Positions 4,952 through 56,039 of a DNA stretch of 64,000 nucleotides are shown piece after piece. How positions within the stretch are numbered: position 1 is the first letter of the stretch; each line of letters begins with the position of its first letter. This DNA is from Arenicola marina. Lineage: Eukaryota; Annelida; Polychaeta; Arenicolidae. The position numbers were made by a program, and so were the translations under genes. The stretch is from positions 17,449,971-17,513,970 of the forward strand of contig OZ025257.1 in the NCBI GenBank assembly GCA_964019135.1, read 5' to 3'. Below the pieces are notes generated by a model. It saw only the letters and a list, made by a program, of their open reading frames with translations. It searched no databases and was not told the DNA's origin.

Positions 4952-4999
4952 ATTAACTTAATATATAACTCATTAAAGAGTTATGAAGTTAACGCAGTT

Positions 5000-5530
5000 A
5001 ACAAGTTAACACTTGTGGAATTACTTTTTATCACTTTGGATGGTAGGCGATTACTTGATAAGGGTTAAAACCTGCACGATGCACGCACACTCCCACCAAT
5101 TCCTGGTCTCATGTGGGTTGCACTTCATGGCTCTGTCGCGCGTCGGGTACCAGTGGGTATGAGCAGCCATGTATCAGGGCTAAGCGTTAACATGTCTCCT
5201 GCTTTTTGGGTTTAACTTTCGCATACTACGTTTGAACTAAAATGTCTAGCGCTCACATACCTTCCCATATCTTGTGCACCAGTCGCCTTTAAACCACATA
5301 TGTATATATCAGTATGTCGTAACCAAGAAACGCACAGCTAGACAACTAGGCAGCGAGGCAGGCCATTTAAATCGATAACCATCAAGTATTTTGTGTGACG
5401 TCATGTTTCAGTGTTCTGCGCCATGTAACTATGGCAACCACTGTTTATTGAAGGGGTCGCATGGCGGTTTGGATCAGATTACAGTTCAGCGGCAAGTAGC
5501 CCTAGCCACCACTGAGCCAGATTAAGTAGT
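5000..5530. repeat. Interspersed repeat R1, copy in block A
   Basis: It begins near the phrase ACACTTGTGGAATTAC and ends near GGTTTGGATCAGATTAC. Copies occur at about 15,660-16,210, 27,925-28,218 continuing at 31,561-31,790, 37,245-37,565 (partial) and 56,040-56,560. No coding capacity is evident. Most copies travel with the MT block, but the 37.2-kb copy sits alone in an IR intron, so it may be an old transposon in its own right. Confidence 0.6.
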
Positions 5531-5559
5531 GGGTTGTATTGTATGAGAGTTTTGCTGTA

Positions 5560-6430
5560 GCACTAACCGAGCAAGAAAAGACAATGACATTAACTAGATG
5601 AATTACTAGTGTGTTTGAATCCCTCGTCAATAGCAAAAAAATAATTACATATTTTAACTCACATAAACTAAATAATTGTGTTCATAAGTAATATATCGAA
5701 GTACGCCATGGTCATACACTTTAAATCCTCTGCATTCTGAAAGATATTTTATCAGGCATATCATCATTTCTAGTATCGCTTTTCAATTAAAAGAGTATTC
5801 ACTGGTCATAAATTGAAACTCCAGACGCTATGTTCTCTATGGTTAATCGATAATTGAAATTACTCATGCAGTACTTTAGTCTCTTAATAAAGAATATTAC
5901 ATTACTTCGTACGAGTGATATGGAGAAGCCTGAATTCGTGAACGATATATATCCATATTTGCATTTATCTTTAGTTTAAATGGTAAGCGGAAAAACAAAT
6001 ATCATATAATGTAATTGAAAATGATATCTCGCAATAAAACTTTGACCTTTTGGGGTTTCACATCTCCACTCATACGCAGGACAAAGTATTTAGGGGCAAG
6101 TTGGAGCTTGCTATTCCTATAAATGAAGTCGGACCTGTCAACGGTTTTACAAGGTACGACGTTTCCATTACATTACGTTTCGAAACCTGCGCAGTTGATT
6201 AGGTATTAGCTCTTATATGTTAGGCAGCTTAAAGCCACGATTTCCTGATCGTAGATATATTATTCAGTATTATCTACACCTGGCAGTATGATTGTTACAT
6301 TGTTACAACAAACATCATTATCGGCGCACTGATCAAGAAAAATCAGACTGTATACGTTAACGAATGATTTCAAAACGAACTATTGTCGCGGTGTTGTCAA
6401 ATTGTTCCATGAGTGTCGATTAAATATCAA
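5560..6430. other. Non-coding spacer between MT and IR copies (A)
   Basis: Conserved with 32,110-32,900 and 56,590-57,468, and partly with 16,520-16,880, by duplication. I see no coding frame or RNA gene in it. Confidence 0.5.
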
Positions 6431-6575
6431 CTAAAGCCGTTCTCTTCTGAGGCGGCGCCACTGCGTCATACAACACTCAACCACCAGAACGAGGCCGGAC
6501 GTGTGTAGAAGACGCCGTAGATCAGTTGCATGGAGACGACGGGCGAGCCGAGGCGGGCGGTGGCGGCCATTTCGT

Positions 6576-6755
6576 GGCAATGAGAAGGGTCACTTTGAAA
6601 GTTAATAGGAGCCGTGTCTCCGAAATAAGCCCTTACTCTTTGCGAAAATACAAGATGTCATGGCATCTTCATCCAACATGGACATTTAGAATTCGAACCC
6701 CGAATCGAATAAGCGGATGCACTAGTAATCACGTGGTTACTGCGCAAAAAGTGGC
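6576..6755 (-). repeat. tRNA-derived SINE, copy A
   Basis: On the minus strand it has a tRNA-like head with a B-box (GGTTCGAATTC) followed by a body containing TGGATGAAGATGCCATG and TTTTCGCAAAGAG. Relatives are at 33,200-33,372 (in the intron between IR exons 10 and 11), 57,612-57,786 and 45,735-45,930. In this copy a deletion has joined the SINE directly to the remnant of IR exon 11. Confidence 0.65.
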
Positions 6756-9700
6756 CCGAAGACCAACTCCTATCAGTCATTGGGTCGCAGTGTCTCAGAA
6801 GAGCTTGATAAATTGCATGTGACGTTAGCGGCTTAGATCTTGCGAAAACGGCGGAGGTACGTTCATAACATAACTAAGAATAACGCTCCTCATGCATAAA
6901 CAGTAAATATAACATATTATATATAGGTGAAATGTCAAGAATAATTTGCGTTTTCTTGTCTCGGAAAGCAGATTAATGTAGGAAGTGGTTATAACCATTA
7001 TTTGACGATTTGTTTTGACTGGGGTTTAACGATGTCTTGCACCTACATGGCTGAAATAGGTTCGCAGTACCGCGAGTTCTTCTGTAGTCCTATCGATTGC
7101 TGGCTATAAATCTCTGAAGTGATTGGGAACAATTTCATCCGGGGATCAGCCGCTATGTATGGCTTGGCCAAGCGTGATGACGTCACTAATGCGAAGGGCT
7201 CTGATTGGACCTTGTCGAGCAAAGTGGTTATATTGAGAGCCATAATGGTGGGATCAGTTTGATGAAAGGTCACCATTCGACTCCATAAGGTCACCCAGGG
7301 CTCCGCTGTCGATGACTGCCAGGCAATCACCATTAAAAAAAAGGTTAAAAAGGATAAAATGTCATATATACCCATCAGGTTATCTTAGAGACGAAGATAT
7401 TTTGTCACCAGTACCTGTTAATGTTATATTCAGGTAGAAAATATCCGTGTCACATATAAACGAAAAACACGAGGCACGTGGTGGACAAATATAAGTTTTG
7501 TATTTAAATACATCATATAATATGTATCATCAAAACGTTCCTTCCATGTTATCATTCCGTTATAATATTGTCCATTTGTCACTGCTTTTTTTACAATACA
7601 ATAGTGGCTCATAAGTATAGATGCCTTAATCATGGAAGGAATAGCTTTATTCACAATAAAAAAGTGGATCATATGTACGGACATTGTGATTATTAGTAAA
7701 ACCGAAACGAATCATGCTATATTGGTATGCTACTTTAAATTCGATTTAAGTTACATGTAGTGGAAATACGGTGGCATGTACTTACTTCTATAATGTTCAC
7801 GAAAGAAGCTTCTCCAAGAGTTCCAAATTTGTATTGGTTTTGTTTTACGAGTTTTTCCAGCGAGTTGAAGGGGCAGTGGGAACTTAGGGACTGACACAAG
7901 TGCCACCATGTTGCCGAGGTAGGTGTCACTCATCACCATATTGTTTCTTTTGGTTACTTGTTGGTATTCTGTGACCCTACAACATTTACTAAGCAGTGCA
8001 ATAATTGATTTGTTTTTCAATGTGCTAAAGTATCAAATAATGCTAACTGATATCATTATAATCAACTCACATTGCGCCATTAACACTCCAAAGGCAAACC
8101 AAAGCGACTGAGGCCAGTAAGACAAGGCTTGATTCCCTTACCGCTTGCTGTGATCTAGCATGTCATTGGCCAGCCAATCACCAGCCTGGTTGACCAACCA
8201 CGTGACGAGCGCTCCCAACGGTAAGGACGTCAATATACAAAGCCACACGGTGGTCGAGAAAGGCCTCAACAGGAAGTGTAGGCCATCGGTCTCCAGCGAA
8301 TGAAGCCAGAACATTACGACACGGCCGTCAACATCCATTGGAATATCGGGAAAGTCAATGACCTCGTGGCGAAGTGGATTGTGGGACAATTGTGCGGACA
8401 CAAGGTCCACTTCCTGAAATTATGATGAGATATATAAAACTCTACCCCTACGGTAAAAGCAATGTTCACAATCATAAGCCTAATACATAACATATACATA
8501 TAAATTGCAGATGTTCACTAGCAAAAAGCAGATCATATATATTCATGAAGAAAAGAACACACCACTTAATTGTTACATAAGGTAGCTGTCTCCTATATGA
8601 AAATGAGTAAAGACTCAAATGTAATCAAATGTAGTCAACACATTAAGCTCATACTAACTGATCAAAGGAAATGTCTAGCCATGTATACTATATGTTGTTA
8701 AAATTCGAAGTTTTTATGACTATGTATCAAAAATGAAAGTGGCACGTTTCTTTCCGTGGGTATATACAGACGTTTATATCAATACATAAGTCAAGGATGG
8801 TCAATGTTTCAACTCGTCCTGTTTTTGTTGCCCGATGTGTCACCATAGGCGCGACCACACGTCACCATAAAGAAATATCACACAGGAACATATGTACCTA
8901 GTGGTAATGTGACTGTAATGTTGATCTTGTGTTCGTTTGAACTATTCCACTTTTGGGTCATGACGGATCGTCTCAATGCGATGGACTTTGCTATCCAAGT
9001 GATACTGATGACGTCGGATCATATGAATTTCAGCCATTGGCCTGTATTCACTTGAGCGAAATTGATAATATAAATTCACTACAGGTACTCAATGTAAGAA
9101 AATCTTGCTCAGCAAAATAATTGTTCTAGTCGCGGAATTACAATCAAGGCTCCTTTGATTAGATTGCGAATGAAATAAATCGTGGCCGAAGTAATTGAGC
9201 CATAATCTCAGGGTTTGGACTATGTTGTCACGAAACAATAGGAAAGCGTGCCCTGATTGGTGATAACGTGACCTTTCTCTGAAGCATTCCGACGAGCCCA
9301 GTCCAACTTCCGTCTGGCTCGATACCTCCTCATGCGCCGTCAGGGGGCTCCACTAGTGTGTAACTATAATGCAATGGTATACACGACACTACGGTTTAAC
9401 ATTACATAAAGGAATGTTCATTTACCTGTTCCCAGGTATGGGGTTTTGTGTACCGGATCGTAATTCTAAATTGTACAAATAGATCTAGAACTGTGGACCA
9501 ATTGCAGATTCTGCATCCGTTTACCTATTTCTGACCAGTTCCCTTGGTGTTGAAGCAAGAACAGCTGCACAAATTTCCCGCGACCCCTAGTGTAGCCAAT
9601 TATACTTTCATCCAGTACATGACGTCATACTTTGCGGCTATAGGGCCTCAGTACGAATAGTTGTTTAATAGTAGTTGTTACAAAAACCTCAGACCAACAC

Positions 9701-9802
9701 GAGGTCATATTTTCTCTTACATGTGCCTTCGTTTGCCTTCGCATAGTATTTTAGTGATTTATACCTTGTCATTGCCATTCAGCCAACCTTTATGCCTTGT
9801 TA

Positions 9803-9955
9803 TTACTTCGCCCATTACCCATATTCCTGACTTCATCCCACCCTCCATCCGTCGTCATTACTTCACTCACTACCCCTATTCATCACTTCACCCCACCCTC
9901 CATCCGTCGTCATTACTTCACTCACTGCCCGTATTTCTCCCTCCTCCCATATGAG
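9803..9955 (+). repeat. 55-bp minisatellite in IR intron, copy A (~2.5 units)
   Basis: The unit begins ATTACTTCACTCACTACCC and ends CCATCCGTCGTC, 55 bp long. There are two full units plus a partial one here, versus three plus a partial one at 39,283-39,480 and at 60,835-61,045. Because 55 is not a multiple of 3, the PSSLLHS reading frames through it are coincidental. Confidence 0.85.
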
Positions 9956-10455
9956 AAGGCACGACTGAAAGCGCTAGCCCGCCGCCTTCATCTGCCTGTT
10001 GCAGTTGATCGCTGTCCATTTATTGTCAGTTAGCAACCCTTTCATTCGCACCAAATGCAAATGCGTGATTTAATCATATCCCATACCTCGCCAGCCATTG
10101 GTCTTGCTTCCCTGCCATTATATTGGCTAATGCATGTATCAATTAACGCGGGTCACCCCCACAATTGTTGTATCTGTACTATTCGATTGCCTCACCGCTG
10201 TGCGGTAACGTTGAATAGCAAGGTGGTGCTGGACGGCATGCGTTGCTATGAAAACCACGTTGATGATGTCCTGTAGGGCGGTCGATAGCGGGGACAGAAA
10301 GGCGGCCTCCGTCAGCAGAAGCCACCGGGTCGCCCAGGTAAAGTGGGCCTGCTCCTGCCACTCCCTGTCCGCCAGGTTGGCCTGTGGGTGTGTGGGGGTG
10401 GAAATGGGGTGGATCGATGTAGCAGTTTAACATAGTATATATATCAGTGGCAACG

Positions 10456-10535
10456 TTGGGGGTGAGCGTGTAAGGGGGTGTAAGGTCGGGTATTGGGGAT
10501 GTAGGGGGGAGGTGTAGGGGGTGTAGGTTGTCTAT
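10456..10535 (+). repeat. G-rich minisatellite (GTGTAGGGGG-like)
   Basis: Irregular repetition of GTGTAGGGGG and GATGTAGGGGGGAG. It lies in the intron upstream of IR exon 4. Homologues are at about 40,010-40,112 (expanded) and 61,548-61,620. Confidence 0.7.
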
Positions 10536-10539
10536 TTAT

Positions 10540-12000
10540 ATCAACAGAGTAGGAGCGTTTTCATTTATCGTTTACCAGAGCTGTTACATTGTTGATTGCA
10601 TTTAACAGTGTGTAATGTACTCACCATAATCTATTTTTCATATCTATATTAAATGATATGTAAAAGCCTTATTATCGTATTTGTGTACCTGAAACGATAT
10701 ATAGCTATGCTTGATGTTATGAGCCTTAATATTTATCTGTGCTTAACTAAAATTGTGATTTTAGCATTGTCTGTATTCATTTATGTCCATAGCTTTCCTT
10801 GCTGATGGAAGAATACGATTTTTGAATGGCGTGCCTTTACAATAATCTCGTGACAAAACACCACAGAATTCTATTTGTTACCTTTGAAATCTGGTGCATG
10901 AGTATCCGCTCTCTTTTAAGGGCATCATAAAAGGCGAAACGAGTCTTCAGAGTACCATATAATTCTAAATTCTAATATAATAATGTATTGTATTAGTTTG
11001 TATTGTCTCAAGCTGTATCCATTGGATTTCAAATGCTCGTGATTGATTTGTTTTTACGCAATTATGTCTCTTTCAACCTAATTTCTTGGTGAAGACCCCT
11101 CATATGCGTATTGGATATTATTTCTCAAGAAAGAAAAGGGAATAACGGTCTTGCAAACTCGGGTTCGGGCTTAGAAGTCAAATCATTTTCTTTCCTTTGC
11201 AAATGTTGTTACTTTTGCTATACTATTTCCACAGTAATAATCGTTCCAACTATTGACAGCAGCGTTTGATCACTAACACTGCTCAACTGCTGAACGCTTA
11301 TATTTGGACGCTCTTACGAATCATAACGGCCCGCTGTTCGTTATGGATGCATTATGAGATATTACGAAAACTGCATTTTTGTTATCGCTTCAGTAGCTAG
11401 ATGTGATGGTATTCTTAAACCCTAATGCGACATCTATATGCTGGCAGGTTGGTAACCAAATAACAAAAACCTTCTCGTGACAATTGAATATGGTCAGCCG
11501 GCTGTTGTTCGCCACGTGCATCAGGGAAAACATTGATATGTTCTCCGATGCGTACAGTCCATGAATTTTGGCAGGATGACCTCTGTTCTAACTGCGACAT
11601 GTCGGCATTCTTAGCCAGAGTCAGAATACATATATTTGACCAAGAAAAACATATGTGGCAACAAGGTTACATTTCTTGACGGATTAAATAAAATAATAAC
11701 TTGATCGGGAGACTCGCATTAAGGCATGGAAGGCCGCTATCGTGTCAGCCACCATGATTCAAGAAAAATATAATTGAACTAAGAGTTCAACAAATAGTGA
11801 CAAAACCCTAAAAATAAACTACTGCTATATGGAAATAATACAAACAGGTGAACATAAGAAACCTTGTAATATGATCAATACAAATAATTCCTAATAATAA
11901 TAATCATTTAATCACCTGTAATTTGTCTCATTGGTGTTATTTTAACGGAAACTTTTTTACGATACATGTTGGCAAATCTAGCAGCTGACATGTGAACCTT
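10540..12000. other. Intergenic stretch with one RT fossil fragment
   Basis: Homology to the intact IR locus stops near 10,870. Beyond that I see only a degenerate copy of the RT block at about 11,495-11,570 (CATCAGGGAAAACATTGATA...). No gene is recognised. The right duplicate of this stretch is 61,630-63,090. Confidence 0.5.
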
Positions 12001-12089
12001 CACAGTTGTACAATCCTACCAGATAATTCTTGACATATAAAGTGACGCCCTTCAAACTATGCGTACAATCGTTTCTCTCACAATCAGAT

Positions 12090-12900
12090 ACAGTAAATTC
12101 TGCCAGCAAGAGCTTTGCAATGACTGTAATCATACTGCGTTTCGGTGCTTTTGTCATACTACCAGGAAGAGCTTCTAACTTTGGCAGAAATCAACAACAC
12201 TGCATTGCAGAGCTTGTCCTAGGCATGCCGACATACACAATTATGACCTAACTTGGGCATGTCGGAATACCGTATGGCAGGACATGTTTCATTTGCAATG
12301 CTTCATCCTAGTTTTCGCGGACGTCGGCATACGTCACGCTTATCTCGGAACGTACAGAAAATTGTTCTTTTGAATTCTATTTTATTACCCATCAAGTACA
12401 TACTTATACAATACGATTGGTGCATTACATGTAGCTGAATAAATGTACATGACCCGAATTGCTTAAATCCAATCTTGATGCTTAATCATAAAGCCATAAT
12501 GCACAAGAAGAGTTGCTTCACTTGATTACATATATCTTGGAATAAAATTTTAAATCATTCGCATCCCTCTAAACTGCTTATGATAATATAATACCCACGC
12601 TTAGTTCGACGTAATAATACCTGATTTGTCCTTTGAATGTGCATTTTATTGATCCGCCAAGATGCGTGCATGGTGGCTGTTCATATTCTTCAACATACGT
12701 GATATATCCGTGTTCACATCTGGTCGGCCCAAAAAATCGCTTAACTCTTTAATTACATGTATTACATATAAACCTAAAAACTCTGTACAAGTATATTTGA
12801 ACCGGAGAAAACCAGACATATATATTTTAGATTATGCCAATACAAGTTTTTTACTACCCATATATATTAATGCATGAACAATATTTGCATAAATATCAGT
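12090..12900. repeat. Start of MT block B: degenerate repeats and AT-rich spacer
   Basis: This stretch matches 2,200-3,110 and 18,360-19,250 (degenerate GGCATGTCGGCATAC repeats, then TTTTATTACC, then AATTATTGCATG-like sequence before the MT gene). It marks the left edge of the repeated MT block. Confidence 0.6.
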
Positions 12901-13068
12901 CTTGTGGGGCTACACTATCTTCCAAAAAAAGGGAGTTGTAGACATTCTGTGAGGAACTTTTCAATCTACGTAGAATATTCCCTGATGCCACAACTATGAG
13001 TTGAGCCCACATGGATCTAAGTGACAACGTCCAGGTTTGGAACCGAGTCACGAGGACTGGTAGTTTTC

Positions 13069-22937: not shown

Positions 22938-25900
22938 TCAAGTATAGATGTAATTCTTAACAATAATAAATATCTGATTGACCAGTATCTTGTTTTGTCC
23001 GTTTTCTAACCCTAGCATAGCTGATTTAAAATTTAAATTATCACTTATTACTTGCACATTTCTACCGTCTAGCGCTGTAGATAAGCTGGTCCAAAGTCGC
23101 TGTGCAACATCACATTCCCAGAACATATGTTCCAAAGTTTCATTAACCTTATGACAAATGCAACATTTTTCAGTGTCTACCAATTTACATAGAAACAAAA
23201 ATTTATTGGTAATCATAGCTCTGCATAAAAATTGATATTGAAAGCTTCGCAATTTCTCGTCAACCGTACACTTCAATGGTAGGCAGTACAGAGTTGTTCA
23301 TGAGGTTTCTTCTGAATTAATATTTAAGTTTTCTGCCCATTTTATTTCGTTTGTTTTCGACACTTGTAATTGTTTTACTATCACCTTATACGCCTTATTA
23401 CAAATTTTGTTGTTTATCCGCATAAAATCTAAATATTTACAGCTTACATCCGATGGTTTGGAATGCTCTTGCTGACAATACCGTCTCCATTCTTGGGGTA
23501 CACCGTGAATAAGACTATAGAAGTCAGCAAAGTTTAGTTTAATATTAAACTTATGCGTAAAACTTTGCCATCCTAAAGGTGACCCGTCATCATTTAGTAC
23601 ATCGTTATAATATACAAGTCCCTTATTTATAAATTCCTGCTGTCGGATAACGAGGTTGGGATTTTTCATGAAGTGGGTGTTCCCGAGAAGCATCTTAAAC
23701 GGTGTTTTCGGAGGTAAGATATTTCGAAAATGGATCCATGCTTTTACTACATCAGCCCAGAAAGGGTTAGTTATTTTTTTGCAATCTTTCAAGGATTTAG
23801 TGTCCATTTCCCAAAACAGCGATTTGTTCGTACACACCACGTCCGTGAAGAAATCTTGCCAAGCGCCGTCTGTGGTTATTAACCGACGCATCCATGTAAG
23901 TTTTAGTGATTGGAGGAATGACGGAATATGAGTCAGATTAACACCTCCATCTTCAGCCTCCTGTGCCAAACGGGTGAGCGAGATTTTAGACTTTTTCTTA
24001 CGCCATATAAAAGACCGAATCATACCCTCTAGCTGACTAATATCGGCTTTACTAGGGGAGGGGAGGACTGACAGCACGTGGACCAGTTTAGGCAAAGCCA
24101 GGGTCTTAGCAACAGCCAAGACATAGATCAGGACATATTTTATCTCTGACTTTTGGCTTTCTTCCCAACCACACGGCCTTCGTTTTGCCCACATTCATCT
24201 TCAAACCCGAACATTTATAAAACGAATCAAGGATCCCTAGCGCAGCACGTAGAGATGATTCACTGCCGTCCAACAATAAGAAAGCGTCATCGGCATATTG
24301 CCCTAACTTATATACTTTCTCTCGAATTTGGATACCTTTCACGTCAGGGCAGTTTTTGATGGCCATGGCTAGAGGTTCCACCGCAAGAATAAACAAGTAT
24401 GGGGACAGGGGGTCACCCTGTCTGCAACCTCTTTCCAGCCTAAAGAATTCAGAAAATATACCATTGTTTATGACGCAGCTGTTCGAGTCTTCGTACAACA
24501 ACATATGGTGTCTTATAAACTCATCCCCAAAACCATAGGCCTGTAGAAGCTGTGTAGTATAATCCCAGCTTAAAGAGTCAAACGCCTTTTCGAAGTCAAC
24601 GAATAATAATAGCCCTGTTTTGTTCTCTTAAATAGTGCATTAAATCGTATACAATTCTAGTATTTTCTCCTATGAAGCGATTCTTTAAAAAACCTTTCTG
24701 GTCCGAACTGATGATCGTTGGTAAAATATTTTTCATCCTTAGTGCAAACACACCAGCTAGAACTTTGTAATCTGCATTAAGTAAAGTAATAGGCCTCCAA
24801 TGTTTCAGATATTGTCTAGGTTTTTCTGGTTTAGGTAAACAGGTAATGATACCTTGTCTTTGTGTTATAGATAGAGTACCCTGCTGACATGCATGTCTTA
24901 GACTGTTCATCAGATGTATTCCAATGTCCTTCCAAAAGAACTTATAAACGTCTATTGGGAGTCCGTCGCTCCCTGGACACTTGTCGTTTTTCATATCCTA
25001 TGTAACTTGTTTGACTTCTTCCAAAGTAATTTCTCCATCACATATAGCCTTTTGCTGTTCTGAGAGCTGCTTTATATGCTTGGAATTTAAAAACTGGTTC
25101 ATGTCGCCTTTCGAAGACATATAGTCACATTTTGAATATAATTGCTGTAACACTTATAAAAAGTCATTTGCTCGACCAAGATGTCATTTGGGTCCATCAA
25201 CTCTTTGCCATTAACATCTAGCTTAGTGATTAATTTATTTATATACTTTCTTTTCTCAAGGCTGCAAAAATATCTGCTGGGCTTCTCTTCTTCCTCATAA
25301 TATTTGGCCCGGGCTCGTAACATTGTGGCCTTTATCTTGGGGGAGCGTAGCTTTTCTAGTTCAAAACCTAACTCATCGCGCTTGGCTACCAAATCAGCGC
25401 TCTCTGCTGCATTTAGATCTATTCTCATATCTAGCTTTTCTATATCTTGCTCTATCCCCCAAATCTGCTTGTCTGGTGTCTTTTTCTTAAACGAACTATA
25501 ACTGATAGTTTTACCGCGAATTTCCATTTTCAGCATTTCAAAAAAGAGTTGGTCGTTAATGACTTTCACACCTGGTGTCGCCCTATAGTGTTTCTCTACG
25601 TTTGCAATACAGTCTTTAATTAGCCTAACGTATTCCTTATCGTAAAACAGAGAAGTGTTTAATTTCCAGAATCCCTTCCCTTATTCAGCTGTTAGAATGT
25701 CTATATCAATAGTAGTAAGACAATGGTCCGTTCTATACCCAGGCCGTATTGTGGCACTTTGTGTAACGGCATGCAGATCTGGAGAAGAGAGGTAAAAATC
25801 CAGCCTAGCTCGCTGCGTTTTGCACTGTTGATTGACCCAGGTGAAACTTTTAGTATCTGGGTGTATAACCCTCCAGGTATCTATGAGTTCTAAGGACTCT

Positions 25901-26333
25901 ATCATATTAAGTACCCGGCTCCTAGCCTTTATATTATTTTCTCTTTTATAACCGTGTGTGTCTAGTTCCTGTTTTAATACTAAATTACAGTCTCCGCAAA
26001 GCAGCATGCTAGCGTTGCCCATACTGTCTACTTTTTGCTGTAAGTTTTCAAAGAACTCTGGGGTGTCCTTATTTGGACCTCATACTGTACGCGTTTCGTT
26101 ATAATGATCGCAACGCCCCTAGACTGTGAACAGGAAGAGTTACAAAAACACTCACATCCCCACTCGTCTCTTAAATCTGCCTGAGTTTTTGTATCAAGTT
26201 GAACATCTTGGAGACAATAGACCGATAGTTTTTGCCCCTGTAGCCATTCGCTCACATCTCTCCGTTTTGACGTTGAAGCAATACCTCGTACATTCATACA
26301 TCCACATTTTATACCAGTACTCATCGGGGCCAT
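22938..26333 (-). pseudogene. LINE ORF2 (endonuclease-reverse transcriptase), broken
   Basis: Starting at 26,333, an APE-type endonuclease runs over GCMNVRGIAS, YCLQDVQLD, GVAIII, CGDCNLVL (family GDFN, so Phe is Cys here) and YRTDHCLT (SDH region). The reverse transcriptase follows: CPGSDGLPIDVYKFFWKD (about 24,985-24,930), KHWRPITLLNADYKVLA, motif A FVDFEKAFDS (about 24,600-24,570), GCRQGDPLSPYLFILAVE and catalytic YADD (about 24,300). The thumb/C-terminal part is 23,298-24,194. A Cys/His cluster CCICHK..ETLEHMFWEC (about 23,160-23,100) resembles zf-RVT ends. Lesions include a frameshift near 26,025, one near 25,100-25,150, a TAG just before MKNDKCPGSDG and a frameshift just before motif A. 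Catalytic aspartates are still present. It would have nicked target DNA and copied the element's RNA. Confidence 0.92.
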
Positions 26334-27924: not shown

Positions 27925-28218
27925 AGAAGTTCGCAGTTAACAAGTTAAAACTTGTGGAATTACTTTTTATCACTTTGGATGGTAGGCGATTAATTGATAA
28001 GGCAAAAACACTACACAATGCACGCTTACCCCCACCCACTCCTGGCCTCCTGTGGGTTGCACTTCATGGCTCGATCGCGCGCCGGGTACCAGCGCGTACA
28101 TATGAGCAGCCATGTATTAGGGCTAAGCGTTAACATGTCTCCTTGCTTTTTGGTTTAACTTTCGCATACAAAGTTTCAAGTAAAATGTCTAGCGCTTACA
28201 AGCCTTCCCAGACCTGGT
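27925..28218. repeat. Interspersed repeat R1, left part, interrupted by the foldback element
   Basis: R1 runs up to 28,218 and resumes at 31,561. Removing 28,219-31,560 restores the order seen at 5.0-5.5 and 15.7-16.2 kb (…CTTCCCA..CCTGGTGCGCCAG…). Confidence 0.75.
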
Positions 28219-28239
28219 AATCCCGGGATATACCGTTTA

Positions 28240-28520
28240 TGCGTTTTTCCTTTTGCCTCCGGGCTATGGCTCCGGGCTATGGCTCCGGACTATGGCTTTG
28301 GGCTCATTTTCCGGGCTATGGCTGTCGATGCCGGGTTCAGTGCCGGGCTATGGCTCTCGGTGCCGGGCTATGGCTCTCGGTTCCGGGCTATGGCTCTCGG
28401 TGCCGGGCTATGGCTCTCGGTGCCGGGCTATGGCTCTCGGTGCCATCTTATGGCTCTGGGCTATGGCTTTGGGCGTCGGGCTATGGCTCTGTGCGCGAGC
28501 TATGGCTCAGTGCGCTGCGC
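28240..28520 (+). repeat. Foldback left arm: GGGCTATGGCTC tandem repeats
   Basis: The 12-13-bp units CCGGGCTATGGCT give way to a strict 20-bp unit TGCCGGGCTATGGCTCTCGG, repeated in register from 28,341 to about 28,460. The reverse complement of this array forms the right arm at about 28,845-29,150. The open frames through it are repeat artefacts. Confidence 0.92.
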
Positions 28521-28835
28521 TGAAATTGAGATCGCGAGAGTGAGATCGCGAGGGTGAAATCGCGAGAGCGAGATCGCACGAACGCGAGGGGAGATCGCAA
28601 GAAGGCGAGGGCGAGATCGCAAGAACGCGAGAGCGAGATCGCAAAAACGCAATTGCGAGGTCGCGATGGCGCGATTGCGAGATCGCGATCGCGTTATTGC
28701 GAGAGTAAAACCGCGAGATCACGAGAAGGCGAAGGCGAGATCTCGAGTTTTCGCCTGCGCGATCTAGCCCTCGCGTTTTACCGATCTCGCATTCTGGCCC
28801 TCGCGTTATCGCCCTCGCGTTCTCGATTTCAGTGC
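28520..28835. repeat. Foldback centre: GCGAGATCGC short repeats, self-complementary
   Basis: Repetition of GCGAGAGCGAGATCGC-like 8-16-bp phrases, switching to the complementary strand (TCTCGCGTTTTCG...) after about 28,745. The centre is thus itself an inverted repeat and would extend the hairpin stem towards its loop. Confidence 0.85.
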
Positions 28836-28844
28836 GGTGCACAG

Positions 28845-29155
28845 CGCCATAGTCCAGCGCACGGAGCCATAGCCCACGCGCGGAGCCATAACCCGACGCC
28901 CAGAGCAATAGCTCGGAGCCGGCACCGAAAGTCGTAGACCGGAGCCATAGCCCGGCACTGAGAGCCATAGCCGGGAAACCAGAGCCATAGCCTGACACCC
29001 GGAGCCATAGCTCGGACCATAGCCCAGCATCGAGAGTTATATCCCGATGCCCAAAGCCATAGCCCAGCATCGAGAGTCATATTCCGATGCCCAAAGCAAT
29101 AGCCCGGAGCCATAGCCCGGTTACGAGAGCCATAGCCCGGAAGCTGAGCCAGGAG
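28845..29155 (-). repeat. Foldback right arm: reverse complement of the left arm
   Basis: Units such as GGAGCCATAGCCCGGCACC are the reverse complement of the left-arm units but less regular. A lone unit of the same orientation stands at about 31,165-31,215 near the element's right end. Confidence 0.9.
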
Positions 29156-29184
29156 CCATTCATAAAAATGGCCTGACGTCACAA

Positions 29185-31300
29185 TTTTGGCGCGCATGCG
29201 TTGTAGGTGAAAATACGGAGCCTCGTTATCGCGCAGGTGAAAACATTGCCACGTGGTTATAAATCTGCATACAAATCTCGTGTTTTGGTGTCTTTTGTAC
29301 TAGTTTTGTTCCGTGGGTTTGCGTCTGTTGTTCTTTCATTGTGTTATGCCCTAGAACTATTTGGGAACCCTACCTGGTGTAGTTAGTGTCAGGTATCCAG
29401 AAAACTAAAAGTAGTAGAAGTGGGTGACCGTCTTCTTGGGATGAAGCCTGTTGTTATGAGTAGACCCATGCAAAAACTTAATGCAGAAACAAATTTATGT
29501 AGGTCAGAATACATATTGAAAAATCATACTTTCCATTAATCCAGTGGATATCCCCATCCCTCATTTGTTGCTGCCAAGTTCTTACCTCCTGCTTGCTGAC
29601 ACATAATTGGAAACGTACCTAATTAAGTGGTATAATTAATTAATAAGGCCCAAAACAAATGCATACAATGAATTCGGGGAAAGACATTTTCTCTTGCCCT
29701 CAATTTGTGGATAAAAAATATTCTTTTGGAACTTGACAGAAAATTCTCTCCTTAACAAAATGGGGGGTGGAACAGGGTGGTTCGGTTCTCTGATCTCTTT
29801 TTGGGGGTTGGCATATTCTCTGATCTCTGATTTTTTGGTTGGCATGTTCTCTGATCTTAGGCAGTATCTTTGATCTCAGAGTTTTCTCTGATCTCTGATT
29901 TTTCATTTTTCCCAAGGTCTGATCTGAGATCTCTGATGTTTGTGGGCCCATGTACTATGATCTTAGATTGTTTTCCACCCCCACCCCTCCCCCCCCCACC
30001 CCAAAAATAACCTTGCATTGAACTTGACAGAATTGCTTGAATTATAATTTGTCCTTACATTTATTGAAGATGTTGCCTTGAACTTGACGGAAAAAATTAC
30101 TTTCCCTCAATCCTATAACCGTGTGGTGAAAAATAATTCATATTTATTTATTTATTTGATGGTGGGGGGGGGGGGGGGGTAGGGGCTTTTATTTGCGTCA
30201 TGGTAATAGAATGACAATTTTTGTGCGCATGCAGACTAAGCGCACTGAGCCTCGTTATCGCACCCTTGAAAACTTTCCCGCGATTACGTAAGCATAGCGT
30301 CTTTCTCAGTGTTTTCTGTCGTATTTGTCCGTGGTTTCGCGCCCGTTTTCATTTATTTAACGATGTCCTACGATTTTTTGGAATGCCTGCCTTGTGAGGC
30401 TAGTGCCAGGGGGGTGGCTAAAAAGGGTTATATAATGCTCTATAGATCAACACATGTTTTACCCCTAGCTAACAATAATGCTTGCCATATATTTGGCAAA
30501 AAAATAATTAAACCATTGACCGGATAGAAAAAACTTCCCTTCATTTTTCATTTCTTGGGGTAGGGGTGGGGAGGGGGTTTGCTAAACAAAAAAAGGTTAC
30601 ATTAATCTTGCTCCCATATTAGATAAAGACAAATTCTTGCTCTCATATTACCCAATAAAAATAATATTGCTCCCATTGCAGCACAAATATTTGTGGCCCA
30701 AGCTAGAAATGATAGCCAAGAAATAGTCCTGCCCCAACCCCCAGCGTGGATACAGAAATTAGCAAAAGGGGACCGGGGGGGAGTCCAATAAAAGGTTGCG
30801 ACCGAGGGGGAGGGGGTGCACTACAAAAGAGGGGGGTCCACACCTCAGATGGCATAACTTTTGCATTGAAAAACAGCATTCCTCCTCAAAAAGGGAGGGA
30901 AGGTCTCCCCCCCCCCTGGATCCGCCCATGCCCCCCCCCCCCACCCCCTTGTTTCGTCTTGCATATTGTGGTTGGAGCAACCCCAGACCTTGCACTGCTT
31001 CGGCATGATTTTAATTGTACAGGCAGAGCTGTATATATAGGGAAAGTACGGCGTACGATATGGGGAGAATCAGAGCGGAACGCATGCAAATGGCTGGGCC
31101 ATGTGCGTTTGTTTTCACCTGCGCTCTGTGCGCCGCCTGGCGAGTATAGTGCGCATGACTGGAAGTCCATTTCTATGAATAGCCCGGTGCCTGAGGCTGG
31201 AGCCATAGTTCGGAGCTCGAAACAGATTCCCTCTAGTGTTATTCATTTTCGCGAAAAGAGTAACACGGTTTCGCGCGAGTGTTACCTATTTCCGTTTTGT
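29185..31300. other. Interior of the foldback element, no gene recognised
   Basis: Two related stretches start near the phrase GCCTCGTTATCGC (29,220 and 30,247) and run to a short ATG frame (MSYDFLECLPCEAS in the second; a decayed version in the first). There are repeats of TTGAACTTGACAGAA (about 29,735, 30,020 and 30,075) and long G or C runs (30,165-30,178; 30,909-30,950). The 245-codon frame at 30,746-31,483 crosses homopolymers and repeats and has no motif I recognise. Confidence 0.5.
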
Positions 31301-31400
31301 ACTTTACAAAAGGGTAAAAGATATCGCGCAAGTGTTACCTATTTTCGTTTTGCTCCTTTCAGAAAAGGCGAACGGTTTCTGATGACTTTTACCTTTTTTG
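31225..31400 (+). repeat. Two ~67-bp direct repeats near the element's right end
   Basis: TCGCGCGAGTGTTACCTATT at about 31,271 recurs as TCGCGCAAGTGTTACCTATT at about 31,325, each followed by a TCCGTTTTG- or TTCGTTTTG-type run. Possibly a subterminal binding-site repeat of the element (inference). Confidence 0.5.
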
Positions 31401-31560
31401 CTTTTTTATTTTTCAAAACGGTAATGGGAAAAGGAATTGCCGAAACCTTTTTCTGCTTGACCTTTTGTGAAACAAGAAATTGAAAAAGGGAAAATTCTGC
31501 TTTTATAATGTTCAGAAGCAAAGGAAAAACGAAATAACGGTATATCCCGGGATTCCTGGT

Positions 31561-35900: not shown

Positions 35901-38900
35901 TGAGATATCCCTGGTCTAAACCAACCCAAACGGGGATCTCCACGGCTACAAATTTCAGCCTTACTATCAGATGAGGCCCGAAGCTGTGTTCCACTGTGGC
36001 CATGCCCTACCCTCCACTCGTCCCCCGTATCTGACGTACTCTCCCACATTGATTGCTCCCGAAGCCCTGGAGGATTGATTTACTATCTCGTGGACCTCTG
36101 GACATGTTAATATGAGACCAACCCTGTCGGTGAGAGAAGTGCAACGAACGCGCACCTGGTTGACTAATAAAAGTGCATTTTTTAGAGAGAGAGTCGATTT
36201 CCGAGTCCAGATCACTCGCAATTTGATGGAAGGTCCTGTGATCATTTTTTTGCTATTTTAAACGCGCATTCTCTTCATGCGGCACTGCACACCCTATATT
36301 GTCGGATATATCCCCGCATTTAAAAGCCAAATTTGCGTGGCGTAATAAAATTATAAATACGTTATCAATAAAATGATAATTAAAGTAAATCTGACGAAAC
36401 GTTTTTACTTAACAGCTTACCGTACGTTATAAGATTTGAGCACAACGTCCGAAATGTGTGTAGTTTCTACACCATTTTACGGATGGTGAATTCAGTAACT
36501 GGCAACGAATTTGTGTGACAAGGAAAACACTCTAAAGTCTGACACTAAAACGGGTGTCCTCTATTGTACGAAGGTTCACCGCAAGTATTTGCGATTGCTT
36601 GTAATTAATCATGTGATTAAATATGTGATTATTATCGCTTTAACTCGTGTGTTATCAGAGTTGGAATGCTCGTGACAGATGGTGCGTAGCACGGCATCCA
36701 AATCCCCTCAACATGATGCTGATTACGTGCCACGCATTATAGTAATGCATCACACCATATTTTCTCACCTGAAGTTGAATCTTACTGCTACGTAATCGAG
36801 AATCTCTATGGTCCACCCTCGATATGTGACTTGGCCATCCTGGCTGATCTCTTTGGCTGTAGAGAGGGGCCACTGGAAGCAAAGTAAGAGCGGTTGGTGC
36901 ATTTATAAAAGTAAAATGTCGAACTGCAAGATCCTATGTCATGACTGTAGCAAACAATATATTACAAAGCGACTAAGTACTGATTACTGTACTGATCAAA
37001 CAATTGGCAATCATTCTACACATGATACAATATGACAATAGCGCGAGTTTGCGGGGCGTTAGACAATTTTATTGGCCTGAAATCAAGCTGTAGCAGCCCG
37101 CCAATTTTTATTATTGGCCCGAGGCCGCAAGGCCGAGGGCGGATAATGAAAATGAATGGCTGCTACAGCTTGATGAAGGACCAATAAAATGCCTAAAGCC
37201 ATGCAAAACTCGCGCTATTACTATTATTACGAGTTGAATCTAAATTTAAGGCCTTGACTTGTCTCTGCTTCTTTGGTTTAATTTCCGCATGCAACGAACA
37301 AAGTAAAGCATTTTGGGACTGACTTGCCGCAAATCATAAGCCTTTCCACATATAGTTGGCCAGTCGCCTTTTTGATACCATATATCGTTGCCAAGAAACA
37401 TGGCACGTGCAACTAGGCAACTAGTCATGGAAGCAGGCCATTTAAAGCTATAACTACAATTCTTTTGTGCGCGACGTCATATTTCATTGTTCTATGCAGC
37501 GTCGTTATGGCAACGATTGTCGATTGCATGGGCAGCAGGGCGGTTTGGGTCAGAATACAGCATTTTAGAGGCCTTCAGATGTAATGCTATTGTACTAGTT
37601 ACCATGACCACCAACTCGTAATAATGATATACTAATTACCAACTGATCAAGCAATACAGATCTCTAGTGTAGTGTTAGGTATCGCTATAGCTTTGTATTT
37701 AAGCAGTAGGTGGTGTCCTCTTGTTTTGTGCCACTCATGGCCGAAGGAAAAAAAGATGAATGGTTTTATGATGTACTTTAAGCTTAGTTTCTCATGTTTG
37801 ATTTAGACAGCAGAAGGACTGTAGAAAAAAGAATATTTGAATGCAGATAACCCTATCCTCGAAATATGTCGAACATGTGTAAATGTGTAGAAATATGTTG
37901 TAGGGATGCTACAGAAATGCCTCACACACCATTCCCACGGGATTTCCCCGAAATGTTTAGACTTGTCCTGGGGATCCTATTGCTGGTGACAGGAAAGATC
38001 ATTTTATACGTGATGTGATCAGCAGATTATCATGGTAAATCGTTATTTCTTATACTCCCCCTAAAATAGTCTTCTTTAAGTTTAGACTGTTTCTAGTGTT
38101 CCGATGGTCCTGTTGTCTTTCAAAAAAAGCGATATACACGAAAGCCAAATATGACTCGTAGGCCGGCCAGCTCAACCAATTTCTGTAATTATTATGACCC
38201 GGGCTGACTCGCCGACTTACCGGCATCACAGCCACTACAAGACGCTTTCCGTTTAAGCCGTACTGACGATTAGGGTAGATATCCGTCTTCGTGAGGTTCT
38301 TGGATCTGACATCATATCCATATTTCCGAACCTCGACCCAGTGTATATTGTTGGCGGTCCAGCGCCCACTGTACAAGGTGCTTTCACATGGCGTCATCAA
38401 CTGAAGTGGAAGACATTCAAGTGGTTGGCGGCAAGCCAAAACAACCCGTTGAGCCACTTCGACATACTGATCCATAGCCCTCCGACATACCCGAATTATA
38501 CCCGGGCAGTGGGCAAATTAGCCCCTTAGATGGCAAATCAGCCCCTTAAATGGCATATCAGTCATTAAAGAATCAAAATCTGATATGCCTGTTGTAATGT
38601 ACGGAAAGACATATAGAATAAAATGCGTTCCTTCGAGGAGGGACAAATCAGCCATTGGAAAAAAAAACCCATATGAGAAAGGAAAATTTGTCATTTTGAA
38701 AAGATATTGACCATTCTAGAGAACGAAATTTAAACATAAATACTAGAGAGATGGCTTCTAAAAATCATACAGTAACGAACACTGGATCTACATCTCCATT
38801 AGAGGCCTCCTGAGAGCGTTGATACTACTTGACATATCTGGAAGATGTACTTCCAAATATAATATTTTGTCACAATTTCAAACATTCTCACTTTGATGCC

Positions 38901-44971: not shown

Positions 44972-45606
44972 GTCGTGATATATGACACATATCGTGATAT
45001 ATGACTCGTATCGTGATATATGACTCACATCGTGATATATGACTGCCTCGTGATGTATATCTCACGTATCATGATATATGACACATATCGTGATATATGA
45101 CTCATATCGTGATATATGACACACATCGTGATATATGACTCATATCGTGATATATGACTCACATCGTGATATATGACTGGCCTCGTGATGTATATCTCAC
45201 GTATCATGATATATGACACATATCGTGATATATGACTCATATCGTGATATATGACTCACATCGTGATATATGACTGGCCTCGTGATGTATATCTCACGTA
45301 TCATGATATATGACACATATCGTGATATATGACTCATATCGTGATATATGACTCGTATCGTGATATATGACTCATATCGTGATATATGACTCACATCGTG
45401 ATGTATGACCCACGCATCTTGATATATGACTCACGCGTCGTGAAGTATGATTCACATTTCGTGATATACGACACACATCGTGATATATAACTAACATCGT
45501 GATATATGACTCACATCGTGATATATGACAAACGCGTCGTGATATATGATTCACATATCGTGATATATGACACACATCGTGATATATGACTCACATCGTG
45601 ATATCG
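44972..45606. repeat. 19-bp satellite array (TCGTGATATATGACTCACA), ~33 units
   Basis: A 635-bp tandem array of a ~19-bp unit, with ACACA/CTCAT/CTCAC variants. The variant GGCCTCGTGATGTATATCTCACG recurs at about 45,046, 45,181 and 45,278, giving a higher-order pattern of 7 then 5 units. CATATCGTGATATATG is close to a palindrome. The MSHISRY-type frames on the minus strand are artefacts of the repeat. Confidence 0.93.
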
Positions 45607-50686: not shown

Positions 50687-52989
50687 CGCAACGTACCGCC
50701 CGCTTTTCGATTGGCATGGTGGGGTATTATCGCTCACCTTCCTATTTACTTTCGTAAACAACAGAGATCTGTGTGTTATTTTCGTAACTCTGCCAGGTCT
50801 ACAGACTTTATCCTTGACAAATTTAGTGCAGGCTCACCTGGCTACATATTTTAATCTCCTTATTTGCATTGTCTGGTTGCGACATGACTCACGAGTAGCC
50901 TTTTACTGTAGCAGTACTCAGTGACAGACTGACGCTGTCTGATTGAGTTTTGCGTCACGCCGATCGCACTATCGGCCCTATTTATCGATCTAGTACCTTC
51001 AGCTCCGAAGGCGAAAGAGTACGTCAGCACTAAATAACACATTAATATGTATAGGTGTCACCTAAATGGCGAGCGAAGTAGTACCGCCATCTGACCGTCA
51101 ATGTTAAAACTTAACATGCAGGATTTTTCCATAAGAAAGATTTAGATGTTTTCCATGCACCCGGATGATGCATTTGGATTCTTATTCAATTATATACAAT
51201 GATATAGTATGACGTGATTATATATGTTGTGTGGGTCACCCTAGACCTCCAGTATTAACGGTACATTGTCGACAATCTAATATTGCTATAATTTAATACC
51301 CTTAATATTGAAACAGATACAACAGAGTGATCATTAAATTTATATATTTTGAAGAGACTAGGACTCGCCAAATCAGACAGTAATATTTTCAATGGATCTA
51401 TGTATTTAGATGCTATTGATATAAATACAAATACCTGTAAAATGGCATGTTGTTTACAACACTTCCTTTATGATATTGAGATATCTCGCGAGGAAATGTG
51501 TTGATAAATTATATATATAACATTGTATTGCATTTGTTTGCTTCTTTACAGGTAGGTACATATTATAACCCCATATATATAGATCTACTACCAAGATCAA
51601 GCACATTTTCATGAGAATATGTTGAATTGTGTATTTTCTGCTTGAACAAATCGAAGAGCTATAAGAATGGCAACTGTAATAATAACACGAATATTATATG
51701 AGGCATAAAATGCTGACCCTACTTTTCTAACTTGGACAACATTATATACAAGTTAACGAATGTGTTTAATTTGTATAATGGCAATGAGATTAGTAAACTA
51801 ATGATGATTTATTTTGGAAAGTAAAGTAAATAATATTAAATGAACTGCAAATACATGTATTAGTAGAGAATAAATACATGGTATGTACATGTAGGCAAAA
51901 TGGGAAATATCACAATTGAGATATTTTATAAAATGATTATACGTTTCAAAATCTGTATGCATACTTGTATATCATTCAATAATCCTTTACCTGGCACTTT
52001 ACAGACTAGCCCCCCGAACACTAAACAATTTATCAATCAGGTATACCTTGAGCAAAGTATGCTTGTGTAGTCAACACAATGTCACACATGTCATGCCAGT
52101 AGATCTCTAATATCAAATGAATGAAACTTAAACTAGTCACTATGGTCGTTCCTAAAATCAGGGATCTTTGTTATCGTCATTAAAGAACAGTCACTCAATA
52201 GTAGATGTGAAGAATACTGACTTGTTTCTATCTACAATGCCTCGAATGCAACTGGTGTTTTCACATAAATTGCCTTTGTTAAACTGAGTTGTATTTCGCA
52301 ACAAATCTGAACAAGGCAAGTAATATAATATAGTGAGCTTAGCCTTGAAATGTTAAATGTCATGTTAGCAACTATTGATGGGCTAAGAATTTGTATACTG
52401 ACTCAATGCCAGTCCATGGTAATGGATATTGTGTAATTTTCTATGGTCACACTGCATATGAATGGAACTGTGAAGTCCACAGATTTAATAATTTATCTCA
52501 ACCACTTAGCTTTTGTCTACCAGGTTTCCTTTGTTTAATAGATTGTTATGCCAAAAGATTATTTTTTCAACAGATTTAATTTTCAAGGTGAAGACCTTGG
52601 CACTTATTCAAATGCAATATTTCGTTTTTTACCTTTCCTCAATTCATGGCCGTCTTTGTGCACTTTTTATGAGTACCTTTTTTTACTTCAATTGCTTCTT
52701 TTCTTCACCAAGTTCTTTTCCATTTACAAATTATTCTAGTCAAAATAGGCAGAACATGTGGTGGTCAAAGAATTCCTTATTTGATCAACTATTGTTTTCT
52801 CCGAAAAGCCCTTGACTCTTCTACCAAGCCAATTATTATTTACTTGACTTATCTCAGCGAATTGCCTCTTTTGTCCTTTTTTTGCTTCAATAGCTTGTTT
52901 TCTCAACAAATTTGCAGTGGCTCTAAAGATTGGGTTGCTTTTTGTGAATTTCACTTTCTTCATTCATGAATGTTTTTCCTTTCGTATCA

Positions 52990-53490
52990 TTATCTCTCTT
53001 GTATCGAACGGCTTTGTCAGGATTTATTCCACAACACTGACAAGGACTCGTCTTGCTACGCTACAAGGGTGTATGCTTAGCCCGCTGTTGTTGGCGTTGT
53101 ATATCAGCGAATACATTGACATGCTCTCCGAGGCGCACTGTCCAGACATGTTACTAGGGCGAGTTTGGTCCTAACTGCGAGATGCCGGCATACTGACAGG
53201 AAAAGCTTTGTCCTGACTTTGGCATAAGTCGCCATACTGTATTTCAGTGCTTTAGCCTAACTTAGACGAGTCGCCATCATATCCTGGATTTGGCAGAAGT
53301 CAAAATACTACAATTCAGAGCTTATCGTAACTTTGGCATGCGTCGGTATACCGGCAGGAAGAATTCTGTTCTAACCCCGACATGTCCGAACATTGTATGG
53401 CAGGGCTTTCGTTTGCAGCGCTGTATCCTTACTTAGACATACGTGGGCCATTACAGCGCTTATTTCAGAACATGGAAGTGGTTCCTTTGA
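52990..53490 (+). repeat. RT fossil and degenerate ~40-bp repeats, right duplicate
   Basis: The counterpart of 1,985-2,480, with the same QGCMLSPLLLALYISEYI block. Confidence 0.7.
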
Positions 53491-54285
53491 CATAACTCAA
53501 AGAAGTTAAAACGTTTATTTCAATTTTATTTTATTACCCTTCAGATATACATTGATACCAAGTAATTAATAATACCTGAATAAATATACATAAAAAATAA
53601 TGTTGAGATTATGGCCTTATTGCTAAGTCACTAGGCCGTAGTGTGCAAGAAGAGAAGACCGGTGGCTATACTTGATCATATATATTTTATATATATATGA
53701 ATATTCGAAAAGAAACCAAAAACCATTCGCACGCCTCTCAATATTTTATAATTATGTACCCGCTTAGTTCGACATAATATTAACGTAGTCCGGTAATGCA
53801 TCATTTTTCACTTAATGGTAGATGTATCTCTCCGCCAAGCTGCGTGCTCTGGTCATATAAACCGACAGATGTGATTTACCCCTGTTTGCACCTGGTCACT
53901 GAAGCAAACGCGTACCAATTAAAAGACTTTGAATGGACGCAATGACATGCAATATGTATTTTTACCAAGACACCGAAATACCATTGCCTTCTATGTATGA
54001 TTAAACTGTGAAATCTCATATATATGTTAATAAAAAATAATGTTTTATCTATATATGTATATATATATATATATATATATTAAATTATTGCATGCAACAT
54101 AACTATATCAATATCAGTGTTGTCGGGCTACAATCTCTTCCAACAAAAGGGCTGTGTCGACATTCTTTGAGGGACCTTTTTTCATTATCTAATTAGCATA
54201 TTCCTTAATGCCGCAAGTTGGAACCACGCCGACCTACGTAACAACATTAAAGTCTTGGACCGAGTCACGTGGACAGGTAGTTTCT

Positions 54286-55227
54286 CTAACTGATAAAGTA
54301 AGGATTTAACCTCCCTACTGAAGACCCTTGTGTCTTTTCTGGTCGATAGTTGCATTGAAATATCTCGATGACCTGCCCTGCCCTCTTGGCTGACTCCCAG
54401 ACGTCGCCCAGCTCCTTCTTCCACCTGCCTTTGTCCGGGTAGTTGTCCAGCAGGATGATGTTGTCCATGCTGGCCATCTGCCGGAAGTTATTGTAGTCCG
54501 CAAGACACACTGGGTTTGTGTGGCCCCCATCGATGGATATGACGTCACATTTCACTGCGGGATTCGCTTGGCGGAACGCCGGAATCGATGTCGTAGAATC
54601 GCCCCACGTGACCGTCAGTCTCCCTGGAAACCGTTGCTGTAGGTAATCGGCCATCGGGTGTGCGTAGCCATGTTTACCGATGTCAAAGGAGTACACAGTG
54701 GTGTTGGGGTTAGCCTGTAGCCACATAAAACTGCTGTGGCCACCATTAAACCCGGTCTCACATACCGTCCTGACAAACGGCGCTCGCACTATATGGTAAT
54801 AGGCGATAAACTCTTCTATGTAGTTTGCACTTGAGCCCTCCCGTATGCCACCCACCGCCTTTAACCTTTCCCTAAACTGATCATACTCCCGTTGGAATGT
54901 GTCAGGAAAAGGATTATCCTTGTCCACGTTCTTGAATAGATCTTGACAACGCGTCAGGGCGTTCGGTGCAAAAGAAAAAATATCATCCCAGTTCCATGTT
55001 TGTCTGAGTGGACTGACAAGTCCCTCGGGTCGGCTGGGTGGCGGGCCTAGTACGATGGAACCCAAGGCCGCCGTGGTCCGGGAGTAACCACTGTGACCGG
55101 TGCTGTACAGATAAAGGACGCCGAGGAGAACGAGGGCTGAGAAGACGAACCACAGACTGACTCTTTTGGGGATACGCCATTCTGAACTGCGAGTACCGGG
55201 TTTGCCCGAGCTTGGCTCCTGCATCAT
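54286..55227 (-). CDS. Type II membrane class I SAM-dependent methyltransferase (Methyltransf_24-like), copy D, intact
   Basis: One open frame of 313 residues from the conserved MMQEPSSGKPG start at 55,227; an in-frame ATG four codons upstream (55,239) is possible. It has the same architecture as the gene at 19,415: a basic tail, one hydrophobic segment (VSLWFVFSALVLLGVLYLYS), a stem with PPPSRPEGL, and a methyltransferase domain with CETGFNGGHSSFMWL, YSFDIGKHGYAHPM, GDSTTSIPAF, CDVISIDGGH and IILLDNYPD, ending FQCNYRPEK...VGRLNPYFIS. It differs from copy C near the C-terminus (DKGRWKKELG instead of DNRYGWMQKLG). It is the undamaged partner of the frameshifted copy A at 3,277-4,190, so the block duplication supplied a spare. 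The substrate is unknown. Confidence 0.85.
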   Translation of the reverse strand: MMQEPSSGKPGTRSSEWRIPKRVSLWFVFSALVLLGVLYLYSTGHSGYSRTTAALGSIVLGPPPSRPEGLVSPLRQTWNWDDIFSFAPNALTRCQDLFKNVDKDNPFPDTFQREYDQFRERLKAVGGIREGSSANYIEEFIAYYHIVRAPFVRTVCETGFNGGHSSFMWLQANPNTTVYSFDIGKHGYAHPMADYLQQRFPGRLTVTWGDSTTSIPAFRQANPAVKCDVISIDGGHTNPVCLADYNNFRQMASMDNIILLDNYPDKGRWKKELGDVWESAKRAGQVIEIFQCNYRPEKTQGSSVGRLNPYFIS

Positions 55228-55988: not shown

Positions 55989-56039
55989 ATTAACTTAATA
56001 TATAACTCATTAAAGAGTTATGAAGTTAACGCAGTTAAC

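Follow-up and report, generated by a model that had tools for sequence, protein, structure and literature searches.

What occupies positions 28,219-31,554 of the 64,000-nucleotide stretch of the Arenicola marina genome that we analysed (hereafter the window; C10:17449971-17513970 within the 867-Mb assembly)? A first-pass annotation, made from the letters of the window, had described this interval as a foldback-type DNA element. The foldback reading is supported by ends that occur in many copies, by 6-bp duplications, by an empty site and by a recurring internal plan, and we conclude, with a probability of roughly 0.86, that the window element belongs to a family of non-autonomous DNA transposons of foldback type that was moved in trans. 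The window copy is a real foldback-type element with a nested insertion.

The first-pass annotation had reported inverted ends with a 19-bp core, and we find AATCCCGGGATATACCGTT at both ends, at positions 28219-28237 (forward strand) and 31536-31554 (reverse strand). These are the sole two matches in the window at up to 3 mismatches, with 0.02 expected by chance, and the inverted ends match each other over 35 nt at 91%. The target site duplication (TSD) CCTGGT adjoins both ends as described (28213-28218 and 31555-31560, read from the sequence). The joined flanks align, with no large insertion, to positions 5216-5328 and 56253-56365 (80%). In the first of these paralogous units, the flank alignment places a single target copy at 5270-5275, reading TCTTGT as against CCTGGT at the filled site; the empty site in its 98% duplicate lies at 56307-56312. 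The empty site is real, with aligned flanks, but the two copies given for it are one site seen twice and not independent, because positions 1-12908 and 51012-64000 are a 98% identical duplication at ~51 kb spacing. A third, weaker flank match bridges the junction at 37338-37383 (76% over 46 nt). A duplicate of the window element lies at C10:17529059; at C10:17430511 there is a third copy of the right end. The left terminal repeat is not intact, a point missed by the first-pass annotation: most of the left terminal inverted repeat has been lost, with ~41 nt left (28219-28259, forward strand; 95% to positions 1-41 of a 301-nt arm consensus). The right terminal inverted repeat is complete (31255-31554, reverse strand; 93.4% to the same consensus) and contains direct repeats spaced 53-54 nt.

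Nor is the interval a single 3.3-kb foldback element. We found that 2.02 kb of it (29158-31180, delimited by genome copies and border reading) is an unrelated repeat, missed by the first-pass annotation, with 14-nt inverted ends (ATTCATARAAATGG and CCATTTCTATGAAT) and AT at both borders. In the window copy this repeat interrupts a GAGCCATAGCCCGG unit at AT, and the AT at its borders is probably a 2-bp target duplication. At least 24 near-full matches (87-92%; 40 of 1,132 candidates scored) occur elsewhere besides two window duplicates. Five stand-alone copies whose borders were read have the ends ATTCATAGAAATGG and CCATTTCTATGAAT, with one end mutated in one copy; their flanks differ, save for L060 and L065, which share a similar flanking repeat in opposite orientation. 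We rejected the 2-kb middle as a part of the foldback element, since it has no match in the 20 loci compared and occurs alone elsewhere. Without it, the element measures 1,313 bp, inside the size range of its relatives. ISL2EU, tried as an identity for the nested repeat, agrees with its AT duplication, but the A|AT|T target context given for ISL2EU (PMC4482050) is not seen at the borders read, and we leave the repeat unclassified. Two window frames located entirely or largely within it were compared with Pfam and gave no sign of coding.

The proposed internal plan of an array, a centre and the inverted array, ~0.9 kb in all, is present, but the right array is less regular than the left. Unit matching places the A array at 28260-28508 (forward strand); it is made of GGGCTATGGCTC units, 12 of them within 2 mismatches, with a strict 20-bp array at 28340-28444 (5.2 copies, 97%). 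The b centre (28527-28825, from repeat detection and self-comparison) is self-complementary and consists of GCGAGATCGC and GCGATCTCGC units with 14- and 22-bp periods. Self-comparison and unit matching identify the a array (28844-29157, reverse strand) as the reverse complement of the A array, with 13 units ahead of the nested insertion; the remainder of the a array and the junction to the right terminal repeat lie at 31181-31254 (reverse strand), with one A- unit at 31200. Counted over the whole element, A units number 12 forward and 14 reverse and centre units 11, compared with 4 A units and 2 centre units elsewhere in the window. A very long hairpin, as originally suggested, is possible: folded as RNA, positions 28240-29160 have a predicted energy of -636.5 kcal/mol, compared with -383.4 +/- 7.05 for 20 shuffles (z -35.9).

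We collected further copies through the exact 16-nt core of the end, CCCGGGATATACCGTT, which has 165 exact copies in 867 Mb (94 forward, 71 reverse) and none when read backwards as a control; because the copies were picked by that core, their sharing of it is uninformative as a test. AAT precedes the core in 79 + 66 listed ends (two split searches), and the 20 of 165 ends that lack AAT were only partly listed. Among AAT-core ends on 15 contigs, we counted 26 facing pairs of 333-3,336 bp, of which 11 lie on C8 and 2 represent the window insertion. The ends on C17, C19 and C20 and the group at C5:43.29-43.46 Mb were left out of this tally; for these, inspection by eye revealed no facing end with an exact core.

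We then read the bases outside both ends in 20 + 5 two-ended copies, or 23 after merging copies of one insertion. The 6 bp directly outside the ends match at 6/6 in 12 of the 23 copies and at 5/6 in another 5. By contrast, 20,000 re-pairings of the flanks gave a maximum of 0 copies at 6/6 and 1 at 5/6 or better. Each of the 12 perfect duplications has a different 6-mer. Because 17 of 23 copies match at 5/6 or better against a re-pairing maximum of 1, we conclude that the target duplication is 6 bp long. The first-pass annotation had proposed a genome search with both ends for full copies with 6-bp duplications, and held that copies ending elsewhere would speak against the element. The search yielded these 23 distinct two-ended copies, 12 with perfect duplications, and in 17 a duplication at 5/6 or better lies directly outside the core. 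The one element reached via its array, on C11, has an arm that matches the consensus to position 1. Chance or low complexity as the source of the element is ruled out by the rarity of the end, the z-score of the fold, the number of cores and the re-pairing of the TSDs.

An alignment of 38 arms from 24 hand-chosen sources (up to 1 mismatch in the core) showed agreement of at least 90% at positions 2-20, with positions 4-19 agreeing by the way the arms were selected. Conservation extends beyond the core, with position 20 and most of positions 21-48 at 75-90% or more. The inner half of the arm is a self-repeat, in which positions 156-301 match 87-247 at 70%. Within each of the five complete relatives, one terminal arm aligns with the other over 192-401 nt; in L010 the match is 423 nt long. 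We mapped the plan in 14 copies, the window element and 13 others. The full order of terminal repeat, GGGCTATGGCTC array, GCGAGATCGC centre, reverse array and terminal repeat is found in the window copy and in L009, L013, L014, L016 and L028. One module is absent in 5 of the 13 other copies: the centre in L010 and L011, and the forward array in L018, L019 and L020, with L019 and L020 representing one insertion. L015 is a 333-bp form without arrays. The numbers of units in the two arms can be very unequal (73 vs 4 in L016; 0 vs 40 in L018).

The family is of foldback type and apparently non-autonomous. It has inverted terminal repeats with variable tandem repeats, the left arm of the window copy being only ~41 nt plus arrays; it is multi-copy, with a duplication of fixed length beside shared ends; and a unique coding middle is scant or absent. 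In compact copies array sequence fills the whole span between the arms, and L012 has 4 frames without a Pfam match, a comparison to which the window contributed the two frames mentioned above. Several observations weigh against this reading. Six of the 23 copies fail when the flanks are compared position by position, with L012 and L014 at 4/6, L015 at 3/6 and L039 at 2/6; L010 (6/6) and L017 (5/6) match only after a 1-nt shift. In L012, L015 and L017 little or nothing of the array plan is present; L012 has a units straight after its left end, and both L012 and L017 are mostly other sequence. The conservation of core positions 4-19 in the arm alignment is due to the choice of arms. For most of the 165 exact ends there is no facing end that is also exact, which implies that many copies are truncated or rearranged, or that their partner ends have mutated. 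The treatment of the 11 C8 pairs as one insertion rests on flanks in 3 of them and on regular spacing for the remainder. Finally, in the part of the genome searched we found neither a transposase nor an autonomous copy.

That search began from the ends. None of the 26 facing pairs, all of 3,336 bp or less, was recognised as an autonomous copy. Looking 0.9-9.6 kb inward at 22 loci (21 unpaired ends, a minority of such ends, and L012) for frames of at least 110 aa, we inspected the frames by eye; they resemble low-complexity repeats, pieces of non-LTR reverse transcriptase and host genes, including what we take by eye to be a DET1-like frame in L026. Pfam comparison of 20 frames (18 from L012, L021, L035, L038, L043 and L047, and 2 from the window) gave 4 matches, all far below cut-offs. 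The best of these, to DDE_3 (E 0.036; L038:5630-5881), lies 5.3 kb inside one unpaired end and more likely belongs to a neighbouring Tc1-like element. Across the genome, we obtained 103 Mutator, 43 P, 22 hAT and at least 150 PHIS domain matches (150 of 609 PHIS candidates scored) and compared them by eye with the listed end positions. By this comparison, no Mutator, P, hAT or listed PHIS match lies between two facing ends (integrase-type enzymes were not searched), and none of the 43 P-type or 22 hAT matches is within 15 kb of a listed end. One Mutator match (C5:43473020) lies inward of the end at C5:43462184, 10.8 kb away; a Mutator match at C13:2600366 and a PHIS match at C8:37192360 lie within 15 kb of an end, on its outside. 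Insertion by a transposase is indicated by the multi-copy ends, the fixed 6-bp duplications and the empty site, and movement in trans is probable because we recognised an enzyme-coding sequence in none of the copies examined.

The foldback family would then have arisen as follows. A transposase supplied in trans would recognise the conserved ends (AATCCCGGGATATACCGTTTATTCG...), and perhaps also inner repeats, and a 6-bp staggered cut at insertion would produce the 6-bp duplications. The body is built as two arms in mirror image, both made up of nested tandem repeats, namely the terminal domain, the 20-bp array and the 14/22-bp centre. Slippage, unequal exchange or break repair could lengthen or shorten these arrays in place, acting on a single arm each time, which would yield unequal arms and may yield satellite-like tracts of array units. 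The giant hairpin is a consequence of this layout and does not have to be a gene product. As for the window copy, it would have inserted at CCTGGT and, either beforehand or later, lost the greater part of its left terminal repeat; it would then have been hit by the 2.02-kb element and carried along in the ~51-kb tandem duplication.

We could place the family in no superfamily: 6-bp duplications combined with AAT..ATT ends match none of those checked in full. Drosophila FB elements have mirror-image arms of short tandem repeats, as here, but 9-bp duplications. The P superfamily makes duplications of 7-8 bp, and the 6 bp observed here fall outside that range. Polintons are 15-20 kb long, encode an integrase and have AG..CT termini; their duplication length fits but their termini do not, our longest facing pair is 3,336 bp, and no integrase search was made. 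Mutator-type foldbacks duplicate 8-10 bp, as for Tetris (PMC4079207) and Tm1 (PMC3169594), hAT elements duplicate 5-8 bp (PMC4482050), and IS3EU and Polinton duplicate 6 bp (PMC10045372). Thus, 6 bp lies outside the Mutator range and inside that of hAT. IS3EU and GingerRoot share the 6-bp length with the family, but they have TA..TA termini (GingerRoot mostly, with occasional TG..CA) and not AAT..ATT (PMC10045372). Dada inserts into small RNA genes, and Dada-U6 and Dada-U1 have no terminal inverted repeats (PMC3706591), unlike this family with its long terminal repeats and 12 different perfect duplications; no RNA families or tRNA genes were found in the window.

The family resembles Tetris of Drosophila virilis most, including in its tracts of array units elsewhere in the genome. 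Tetris is likewise apparently non-autonomous, without coding sequence and with longer array-unit tracts elsewhere, and its terminal repeats have an outer flanking part and, inside it, a tandem array whose copy number varies (PMC4079207). The likeness is one of structure; Tetris has ~220-bp units and 8-10 bp duplications, whereas the family has 20-bp and 14/22-bp units and 6-bp duplications. Galileo, a P superfamily element of Drosophila, shares long, internally repetitive terminal repeats, copies reduced to their two terminal repeats and unequal repeat numbers in the arms (PMC3573991); it differs in its 7-bp duplications and known transposase-coding sequence. The Galileo tandem repeats contain secondary transposase sites (PMC3688188), and the repeats in the long terminal arms of our family may by analogy be extra transposase sites. 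Tm1, a Mutator/foldback element of root-knot nematodes, has composite terminal repeats of variable length, some copies with a nested second element, and MITE-like and other forms (PMC3169594); unlike the family, it has mostly 9-bp duplications and copies with a putative transposase. We found no foldback family with the features described here in the literature searched, which covered few subscription journals and neither Repbase nor Dfam, and the family may already be held in either database.

The chances that the family derives from a known superfamily (Mutator, P, hAT, PHIS, IS3EU or Polinton), with an autonomous member that is absent, diverged or missed, seem to us about even. Such an origin is consistent with the duplication lengths of hAT, IS3EU and Polinton; against it stand a 6-bp length outside those of Tetris (8-10 bp), Tm1 (9 bp) and Galileo (7 bp), and the lack of any Mutator, P, hAT or listed PHIS match between two facing ends. 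It is compatible with a non-autonomous foldback family moved in trans, and merely names the transposase. What we have is a well-resolved multi-copy foldback family with a duplication length outside the superfamilies of the foldbacks compared.

The arrays of this family appear to change after insertion, because the C8 copies and the window duplicate differ in length. The 11 end pairs on C8 (C8:24.568-25.061 Mb; L019, L020, L049 and L050) span 899-2,238 bp, with individual lengths of 908, 908, 950, 908, 899, 908, 908, 907, 1,128, 908 and 2,238 bp. The flanks are alike in the 3 of 11 pairs read, and the pairs are apparently segmental copies of one insertion. Alignment of L019 with L020 (908 vs 1,128 bp) showed that their 220-bp difference is a block in the b array. 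From coordinates, the stretch between the left end and the nested repeat is 911 bp in the duplicate at C10:17529059 vs 931 bp in the window; this 20-bp shortfall is the length of one A unit. Judging from these alignments and lengths, units seem to be added to the arrays and removed from them once an element has inserted, and the C8 pairs offer a natural experiment on array growth and shrinkage inside a transposon.

A units also occur widely: the first 125 bases of the element gave at least 184 matches, with 40 of 430 candidates scored, and almost all of the matches listed fall in its A units. It is possible, but in our view unlikely, that the family belongs to an undescribed lineage of eukaryotic transposons with AAT..ATT termini and 6-bp duplications, in which the mirror-image arms of tandem repeats serve as a motor making new satellites from transposon arms and ends. 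We consider improbable the opposite course, in which the family started as a host satellite, made of the A and b arrays, and gained transposon ends. The many A-unit arrays favour it, as does a 2.8-kb array at C6:44019286-44022073, which has no family terminal repeat in the ~400 and 500 bp of flank examined (L071, L072). However, the one further large array that we examined (C11:16.804-16.807 Mb) is flanked by family terminal repeats (L069, L070), the left one incomplete with its 53-bp repeats multiplied, and the array plan recurs within end-bounded elements. These observations come from two large arrays; arrays without ends nearby permit testing whether transposon arms seed satellites. Very improbable is a role of the 0.9-kb hairpin as a functional product, a long double-stranded RNA giving rise to small RNAs that would silence either the family itself or genes of the host: the predicted fold is very stable and several other copies also carry mirror-image arrays, but such arrays give the fold whether transcribed or not, and the arms are often very unequal (as in L016 and L018), unlike what selection for a hairpin would give.

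Further tandem arrays were observed at other loci. C6 carries several additional A arrays. At L031:9606-9901 (C7:14276230-14286130), the outer end of the terminal repeat, fused to a flank, forms a 45-bp tandem array, with 7 copies of the end at 45-bp spacing that reach the end of the stretch examined; here, an element end seems to seed a satellite. Elsewhere in the window, open frames at 23298-26079 resemble what we take, by eye, to be a decayed non-LTR retrotransposon, and positions 44973-45604 hold a 19-bp tandem repeat, TCGTGATATATGACTCACA, in 32.5 copies.
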